A stretch of 64,000 nucleotides of DNA. It comes from Arthrobacter sp. C2 (GTDB lineage: Bacteria; Actinomycetota; Actinomycetes; Actinomycetales; Micrococcaceae). The notes beneath the pieces are model-generated. The model had not been told where the DNA came from and searched no databases. It saw only the letters and a program-made list of their open reading frames with translations. Shown in pieces: positions 32,113 through 33,107 of this stretch. Numbering within the stretch: the stretch's first letter is position 1; each line of letters starts with the position of its first letter. The translations under genes and the position numbers were made by a program. The DNA lies in NCBI GenBank assembly GCA_024207135.1, contig CP042428.1, forward strand, positions 1,674,001 to 1,738,000, read 5' to 3'.

Positions 32113-32799
32113 CTACTGCCCGGCGGCACCGGGCAGCGTGCGCAGGACCTTGTCCGGAAGCCGGTGGCCGGTGGCCGCCTGGTCGGCCAGCAGCGCCTGC
32201 GCCTGCGCGGGCGTGGGGCCGAAGAAGACATCGCGGATCCGCACCCCGTGCCCCGGACGCGACAGCACCACCACTTCGTCGCCCGCACGGATCTTCCCGG
32301 TGCGGACGACCCTCAGGAAGCAGCCGACATCCCCGCGTTCGGTGAACCGGGGCACCCAGTTGTCCTCCTCGAGGTGCCGGGCAAAGGTCGAGCAGGGAAT
32401 CCGCGGGCAGGTGACCTCGACAACGACGGAGGCGCCGATCCGCCACCGCTCCCCCACCACGGCGTCGGAGGTTTCGATGCCGGAGACCCGCAGGTTCTCC
32501 CCGAAGAGCCCGGCGACGATTTCCCGCCCCAGTTCCGCACCCCAGCGTTCGGCCTCGGCCGTGGAGTAGGCGTAAATCGCCTGGTCGTAGCCGCCGTGGT
32601 GTTCGCGGTCCACCTGGGTGTCGGCGTACAGCCCGATCTTGCGCACCTTGACCGGTCCGGCAACGGGCCGCTTGTCGATGGCGGTGATGCCCACCGCGCC
32701 CGCGTCGGGCTTCAGCGCGTGCACGATGCACACCGCTTCCAGGTGCCCGCGGGCAATGTCGGCGGATTCGGGGTGGCCGGTGGCGGGGTTGGGGGTCAT
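32113..32799 (-). CDS. MOSC-domain protein (YiiM-like)
   Basis: 228 residues. VKVRKIGLYADTQVDREHHGGYDQAIYAYS and FGENLRVSGIE mark a MOSC domain (about 45-175), with the invariant Cys in CPRIPCSTFA. A 3-alpha-type C-terminal tail (VRIRDVFFGPTPAQAQALLADQ) matches YiiM. MOSC domains carry molybdenum cofactor or sulfur on the Cys; YiiM reduces N-hydroxylated bases with Moco. It is the second gene of an operon with a CstR-like regulator (9-bp gap), which suggests sulfur-linked regulation. Confidence 0.88.
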   Translation of the reverse strand: MTPNPATGHPESADIARGHLEAVCIVHALKPDAGAVGITAIDKRPVAGPVKVRKIGLYADTQVDREHHGGYDQAIYAYSTAEAERWGAELGREIVAGLFGENLRVSGIETSDAVVGERWRIGASVVVEVTCPRIPCSTFARHLEEDNWVPRFTERGDVGCFLRVVRTGKIRAGDEVVVLSRPGHGVRIRDVFFGPTPAQAQALLADQAATGHRLPDKVLRTLPGAAGQ

Positions 32800-32808
32800 G
32801 GGAAAATC

Positions 32809-33081
32809 CTATGCCAGGGACAGGAAGAGCTTTTCCAGCTTGTCCCGGTCCAGCTGGGCGGACCCGGGCTCCCGGGCCTCGGCGAGCATGCAGGATTGCA
32901 GGCCGCTGGCGATGATGCTGAAGCCGGCCCGGTCCATGGCCTTGGAGGCGGCCGAAAGCTGCGTGATGACCTCGCTGCATTCGCGTCCCTCCTCGATCAT
33001 CCGGATCACGGCGGCCAGCTGGCCCTGGGCGCGCTTGAGGCGGTTGAGCACCGGTTTCAGTTCCACGGGGTCGAGTTCCAT
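32809..33081 (-). CDS. CsoR-family regulator of the persulfide-sensing CstR type
   Basis: 90 residues from ATG (complement at 33079-33081; a GTG two codons upstream is an alternative). The DUF156 helical fold is clear: [22 protein letters not shown]. The two Cys at positions 35 and 64 (29 apart) match the CsoR/CstR pair, but the copper-ligand His expected four residues before the second Cys is Gly. Loss of this His is characteristic of CstR-like persulfide sensors rather than copper CsoR. A palindromic operator-like sequence lies just upstream and a MOSC gene just downstream. Confidence 0.82.
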
Positions 33082-33093
33082 GTCCACAGAATA

Positions 33094-33107
33094 TACGCCC
33101 GGGGGTA
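33094..33107 (-). promoter_or_regulatory. Candidate CstR/CsoR operator
   Basis: TACGCCCGGGGGTA is an imperfect 14-bp palindrome (12 of 14 positions symmetrical) of the TAC-x-CCC/GGG-x-GTA type bound by CsoR/CstR proteins. It is centred about 20 bp upstream of the regulator's start, fitting autoregulation. Confidence 0.6.

Follow-up and report, generated by a model that had tools for sequence, protein, structure and literature searches.

The window, by which we mean the whole 64-kb stretch of DNA that was analysed, contains a gene for a CsoR-family repressor, here called cstR, and a gene for a MOSC-domain protein, arranged in this order head to tail on the minus strand, with 9 nt from the cstR stop codon to the MOSC start. 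The features of the locus are as follows:

32809..33081, minus strand: gene of the cstR-like CsoR-family repressor, 90 aa, with Cys35, Gly60 and Cys64
32113..32799, minus strand: gene of the MOSC-domain protein, 228 aa, YiiM-like, with an invariant Cys136
33093..33108: predicted CstR-type operator GTACCCCCGGGCGTAT (gene strand), 16 bp, touching the cstR -10 box
33088..33093, minus strand: probable cstR -10 box TATTCT, 6 nt before the ATG, with a presumably leaderless start
32806..32811, minus strand: -10-like box TAGGAT of the MOSC gene itself, 6 nt before the MOSC ATG and containing the cstR stop codon

Apart from MOSC, the neighbour of cstR is a gene for a 158-aa membrane protein. There is locally no gene for a rhodanese, nor one for a protein with metallo-beta-lactamase and rhodanese domains, which from these domains we take to be persulfide dioxygenase (PDO). 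Rhodanese, PDO or SQR genes commonly accompany a CstR, although they are no defining trait of the class.

The cstR product has the CsoR/DUF156 fold (Pfam PF02583, Trns_repr_metal, 2.8e-22, score 79.3 against a cut-off of 22.8). The sequence-only reading of this DNA had noted that it keeps both cysteines and has glycine in place of the copper-ligand histidine, and had considered it CstR-like rather than a copper CsoR. Both statements hold. Cys35 and Cys64 are 29 residues apart, Gly60 takes the place of the histidine, so that the Cys-His-Cys ligand set of copper-sensing CsoR is absent, and Glu34 stands where copper-type CsoR has tyrosine. Among 44 distinct proteins from 80 loci that were placed in a tree, all 43 CstR-like proteins read C-G-C, and the single CsoR encoded beside a heavy-metal ATPase (L001) reads C-H-C. 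The window's genome has two CsoR-family genes, namely cstR and this ATPase-linked CsoR gene, whose product is of the Y-C-H-C type and which has 17-bp sites nearby; the ATPase is presumably of the copA type, judging by its HMA and E1-E2 ATPase domains. In the tree, the cstR product groups with CstR-like proteins of rhodanese, TauE and PDO loci. Relatives fetched from other genera (n=24) are 64-69% identical to it, and for 19 of the 24 the flanks that were fetched contain a PDO-type, rhodanese or TauE gene, as judged from neighbour domains checked on examples; the fetched flanks of the other five (L015, L017, L021, L027, L028) hold no such gene. From clade and residues, we infer that the regulator is a CstR-type sensor of persulfide or polysulfide that acts through Cys35 and Cys64. 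The alternative that it senses copper or another metal, with the small Cys-rich proteins described below serving as metal buffers, could appeal to the shared Pfam family, to RicR as the best NCBIfam match (far under its cut-off, 38.8 of 175) and to the thiol-rich nature of the putative targets. However, the residues at positions 34 and 60, the intact Y-C-H-C set in the ATPase-linked CsoR of the same genome, and the sulfur genes beside most of the closest relatives in other genera make it very improbable.

The regulators that are linked to MOSC form one clade in the tree of 44 proteins (bootstrap 79). In all 21 ortholog pairs of cstR, dN/dS stays at or below 0.14 (dS is saturated in one of them), and dS is similar to that of MOSC, which indicates that cstR was passed down together with the adjacent gene and has been maintained. 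The values thus speak for vertical descent under strong purifying selection.

An operator-like site directly upstream of the regulator had also been described, and it stands up to scrutiny. The site, TACGCCCGGGGGTA at 33094-33107 (plus strand), matches ATACCCn4GGGTAT better than any other in the window, agreeing at 10 of 12 half-site positions and therefore not exactly; sites with a score of 10 are expected by chance at 0.7 per 64 kb (from 40 first-order Markov sequences). Variants occupy the same place in all seven orthologous cstR loci of the genus. Sites with three mismatches were dropped, since 25 per strand compare with 21 and 16 in the reversed control. On the gene strand, GTACCCCCGGGCGTAT is a 16-bp operator of the ATACCn6GGTAT type at the gene's own promoter, and it resembles the published 16-bp ATACCn6GGTAT operator of the Streptomyces coelicolor persulfide sensor as given in the excerpted text of that study (PMC7533328). 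With the -10-like TATTCT ending just 6 nt from the ATG of cstR, a leaderless transcript is probable.

The gene downstream had been taken for a MOSC gene with an invariant cysteine, and rightly so: the MOSC domain is recognized at 113.2 bits (PF03473, 9.6e-33), and Cys136 is invariant in 22 aligned MOSC sequences, that of the window included. The protein resembles YiiM (PDB 5yhh, 2.7e-23), but its score of 72 falls far short of the cut-off of 294 for the YiiM equivalog (NCBIfam PRK11536). We compared the residues modelled to contact the molybdenum cofactor (Moco) in YiiM, which the excerpted text on the Escherichia coli and G. stearothermophilus proteins gives as R55, A56, N87, Q115, R117, S118, C120, S200 and W201 (PMC5818509). 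YiiM and the window's protein share the MOSC domain, and the equivalents of Ala56, Asn87, Arg117 and Cys120 are kept in the latter, with YiiM Cys120/119 corresponding to Cys136. In contrast, Arg55, Gln115 and Ser118 are replaced by Gln73, Cys131 and Ile134, and S200 and W201 fall outside the alignment. That the protein might be a 6-hydroxylaminopurine reductase is only a lead.

MOSC orthologs are found in 14 of 15 genomes of the genus, and in all 14 the gene lies beside the same DEAD-box helicase gene; cstR adjoins it in seven of the 14 loci. For other genera, the counts cover the loci that were fetched, which are those that matched best in a set of 197 genomes of the family. MOSC stays with the helicase gene in 14 of 18 of them, but none of the 18 has a relative of cstR within its flanks, and none of the 24 CstR loci fetched from other genera has this MOSC gene within its fetched flanks. 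A contig scan for close cstR relatives found eight, four of them adjoining MOSC (in Paeniglutamicibacter psychrophenolicus, L098, in two Arthrobacter sp., and in a Micrococcaceae MAG). The link is therefore real within one genus, with none seen elsewhere as far as tested, and the expectation of the sequence-only reading that a true pair should be linked elsewhere is borne out by half. Among the matches listed in the open PMC literature, as far as their excerpts go, we found no paper that links CsoR or CstR with MOSC. In a tree built from DEAD-box and MOSC codons of 17 taxa, the genomes that lack cstR fall into four lineages (G022; G190/G156/G168; G126/G074; G197), with several weak nodes (34-67), and Fitch parsimony requires four changes of cstR state. 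Given the fixed position of cstR, losses are a simple reading of these changes, but gains are possible too.

Does CstR control MOSC? A TAnnnT box is found 6-7 nt before the MOSC start in 14 of 14 loci of the genus, with or without cstR, and in 16 of 18 loci of other genera (it is missing in L078 and L084); these are raw counts with no chance control, and where several starts exist they lean on the choice of start codon, for which we took the one with the conserved N-terminus. In G094, too, where about 40 nt separate the stop codon of cstR from the MOSC start, the box keeps its position. It can in part be read as a weak ribosome site, but what all matches have in common is the T, the A and the final T. 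An ancestral promoter that belongs to MOSC itself is therefore probable, and since the -10-like box is present regardless of cstR, control by CstR would be partial at most, by way of read-through; with the box in all 14 loci of the genus, MOSC need not be a CstR target at all. No operator precedes MOSC in the seven loci of the genus without cstR, and control in trans by other CstRs is therefore unsupported. On the other hand, the distance from the cstR stop to the MOSC start is 9-10 nt in six of the seven loci with cstR (all but G094), which leaves little room for a terminator, and read-through from cstR into MOSC is to be expected. We suggest that CstR would add read-through to MOSC rather than switch MOSC alone. 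Thus, of the proposed control of MOSC by CstR, the recurrence of the pair in related genomes stands, whereas exclusive control does not fit with a promoter-like box that is independent of cstR. The same observations allow a simpler account, in which cstR controls only itself and unlinked genes, MOSC runs on its own promoter, and the adjacency is a frozen accident. The box that is there whatever the state of cstR, the missing operator where cstR is missing, and the many MOSC loci that have the helicase gene but not cstR (seven of 14 in the genus, 14 of 18 outside) all agree with it, and the short gap, with the read-through that it predicts, argues against it. We regard this account as a serious possibility, if a slightly doubtful one.

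Beyond the window, sites with at most one mismatch to ATACCCn4GGGTAT number five in the genome (G000), compared to one in the reversed control; the site before cstR, with two mismatches, is not among them. We regard three of these five as candidate operators:

G000:C1:3901202: operator-like site before the gene of a protein of 72-78 aa whose YgaP-like transmembrane match is below threshold
G000:C1:2456208: operator-like site between trxA and a gene for a small Cys-rich protein (divergent pair)
G000:C1:3879360 (L035/L095): operator-like site before a second gene for a small Cys-rich protein

The fourth site (726799) lies inside a long coding frame. The fifth, GTACCCTAGAGGGTAT (or TTGA), precedes the gene for a small membrane protein, which in turn lies upstream of a purF-like gene (a name given by eye). 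It is present in seven of seven genomes with cstR, but also in G190, G156 and G168, which lack cstR, and its TACCCT looks like a leaderless -10 box before an ATG; we have therefore dropped it as a CstR target. The near-palindromic sequence at this place (L048, G000:C1:1900515), GTACCCTAGAGGGTATG, is of the leaderless promoter type and is conserved in genomes with cstR and in some without.

The YgaP-like assignment of the first candidate target is below the Pfam cut-off (E 0.062). A YgaP-type transmembrane domain is found above the cut-off in a rhodanese encoded beside a CstR of another genus (L013), which makes a YgaP-like target less odd. Whether or not cstR is present, the YgaP-like gene is followed by one for an FMN reductase in 12 of 12 loci. 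The Cys-rich proteins are small (roughly 37-57 aa) and share the motif MCxxxxCxxCxKxTWxGCGxH (MCRAVTCRKCxKTTWAGCGQHV...); searches of Pfam, NCBIfam, PHROGs and PDB gave no convincing family (best E 0.12 to 0.22). Operator-like sites of CstR type precede their genes both within the genus and, at L026-L028, in further genera of the family. The score is at least 11 in 34 of 42 distinct places, including places beside PDO-linked CstRs and L188, and below 11 in eight (L031, L104, L105, and the weaker trxA-side sites of L191, L192, L194, L195 and L196). As the operators also occur beside PDO-linked CstRs, the Cys-rich family would be a general partner of CstR, and not one special to this cstR.

Of the 15 genomes, 12 contain the YgaP-like gene; the three that do not, G198, G126 and G074, all lack cstR and drop out of the comparison between site and cstR. 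Its upstream site agrees at 12-14 of 16 positions in seven of seven genomes with cstR, and in none of the five without (best 8-10); shuffled sequences reach at least 12 of 16 in about 1.1% of cases. The trxA-side site agrees at 11-12 of 12 positions in seven of seven genomes with cstR, a score of 11 being reached by 0.03% of shuffles. The seven orthologs in genomes without cstR (G198 has no close ortholog) score 12 (G197), 11 (G074), 10 (G126), 9 (G022), 8, 8 and 7, and are thus down to at most 9 of 12 letters in four of seven; the flanking letters remain similar, which looks like decay in place. As a control, we scored 14 loci of the second thioredoxin paralog (the G198 copy is outside this count), and in none of them does a site exceed 9. 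The window contains a second thioredoxin gene (38677-39024, minus strand), about 5.6 kb upstream of cstR and without an operator. Fisher tests give 0.0013 for the YgaP-like site and 0.021 for the trxA-side site, but these values are not corrected for kinship, and as the co-occurrence comes from 12-14 related genomes with about four lineages lacking cstR, they should not be counted as independent evidence.

A PDO-linked CstR, which could bind the same sites, is also present in four of the seven genomes with cstR (G111, G050, G180, G199). Within the genus, PDO is present in 11 of 15 genomes and absent from G000, G094, G126 and G198, and of the 15 PDO loci that were fetched, 14 have both a CstR gene and three operator-like sites; the remaining locus, L115, has neither. 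It is therefore conceivable that the unlinked operators belong to the PDO-linked CstRs or to the copper CsoR, and that they match the presence of cstR by chance of phylogeny. The site sequence is indeed common to the PDO-linked loci of the genus, and G197 and G074 keep a good trxA-side site without cstR (G126 keeps a weaker one). However, five genomes that have PDO-linked CstRs and lack cstR have no YgaP-like operator, and the window's genome keeps the sites although it has no PDO-linked CstR and no close PDO relative (best match 1.7e-11, against 8.4e-218 or better in genomes with one). We consider this explanation unlikely. The co-occurrence suggests that CstR additionally regulates a few genes of sulfur handling elsewhere in the genome, in place of the usual genes of sulfur oxidation, and on present sequence evidence the unlinked YgaP-like gene, the thioredoxin/Cys-rich pair and the second Cys-rich gene are better-supported candidate targets than MOSC. 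The proposed PDO-less regulon of cstR is more unusual than its link to MOSC. Eight rhodanese matches in the window's genome have no operator by the strict pattern in the fetched 1.5-kb flanks. The L173 locus (G198:C1:835585) pairs a CstR-like gene with a Cys-rich gene and has two operator-like sites; as G198 lacks a close PDO relative, it is a second case of a PDO-less CstR. In G141, the PDO-type gene of L115 is on a second contig (C2) with no CstR or operator in the fetched flanks, and the MOSC-linked CstR may be the only CstR of that genome.

Together, the genes, operator-like sites, synteny, conservation and co-occurrence that we observed favour a model in which CstR is a repressor at the head of a small reductive and carrier-type sulfur regulon, a variant of known circuits; we think this fairly probable. 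From these observations we infer the binding to DNA, the inducer, the read-through and the roles of the target proteins. Reduced CstR would sit on the 16-bp operator at the -10 box and repress its own leaderless promoter. Persulfidation of Cys35 would make it leave the DNA, which would raise the expression of cstR and, by read-through across the 9-nt gap, that of MOSC, on top of the standing activity of the MOSC promoter. In trans, the same release would free the promoters of the YgaP-like 72-78 aa membrane protein, of the divergent thioredoxin/small Cys-rich pair and of the second small Cys-rich protein. Since the window's genome has no other CstR and lacks a close PDO relative, the output would be the reduction and carriage of sulfane sulfur rather than its oxidation to sulfite; what the YgaP-like and Cys-rich proteins would contribute is a guess. 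Such an output would be coherent, as thioredoxins reduce protein persulfides in Staphylococcus aureus (excerpt of PMC6196236) and the activity of E. coli YiiM and YcbX depends on sulfur mobilisation by IscS and TusA (excerpt of PMC3831636). A bolder version, which we find somewhat unlikely, is that one lineage re-wired CstR from an oxidise-and-export output to a reductive and carrier output (thioredoxin, Cys-rich proteins, YgaP-like protein, MOSC), that operators were lost along with cstR, and that the Cys-rich proteins are persulfide carriers feeding thioredoxin and MOSC/Moco chemistry.

To our knowledge, the known CstR circuits act via persulfide dioxygenase, rhodaneses, TauE, SQR or CoA-persulfide reductase. 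CstR of Staphylococcus aureus is reportedly a dithiol CsoR-family repressor of sulfur-stress genes. The same description applies to CstR of Enterococcus faecalis and to the proposed regulator; the E. faecalis operon, however, encodes two sulfurtransferases, its CstR also controls a CoA-persulfide reductase, and the excerpted text mentions no MOSC gene there (PMC9405070). A close parallel is ScCsoR of S. coelicolor, which likewise combines a CsoR fold, two cysteines (37 and 66) and a 16-bp ATACCn6GGTAT operator with autorepression, the latter presumed in our case. ScCsoR is persulfidated at Cys37 and also needs Cys66; according to the same excerpts it controls persulfide dioxygenase, TauE and rhodanese (PMC7533328), whereas cstR is linked to MOSC, and its control in trans would extend to the YgaP-like, thioredoxin and Cys-rich genes. 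Targets that are unlinked to the regulator, as we propose, have a precedent in the CstR-like TTHA1953 of Thermus thermophilus, which differs in controlling the Sox pathway and in having an operator of TAC/GTA repeats (excerpt of PMC10318464).

If correct, the model would mean that a PDO-less CstR, with an operator set comprising thioredoxin, Cys-rich proteins and MOSC, provides a second output mode of the same sensor. It would offer a testable function for an unnamed family of small Cys-rich proteins, and would tie reactive sulfur to a molybdenum-cofactor enzyme whose E. coli relatives depend on sulfur mobilisation, as the excerpted text describes (PMC3831636). About 2 kb from cstR, at 34999-37551 of the window (minus strand), lie genes for a cystathionine gamma-synthase and a cystathionine beta-synthase, both above the NCBIfam cut-offs, which are possible makers of H2S or persulfide. 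Relatives of the cystathionine synthases also lie near the MOSC locus, without cstR, in some other genera (L072, L081, L084, L086).
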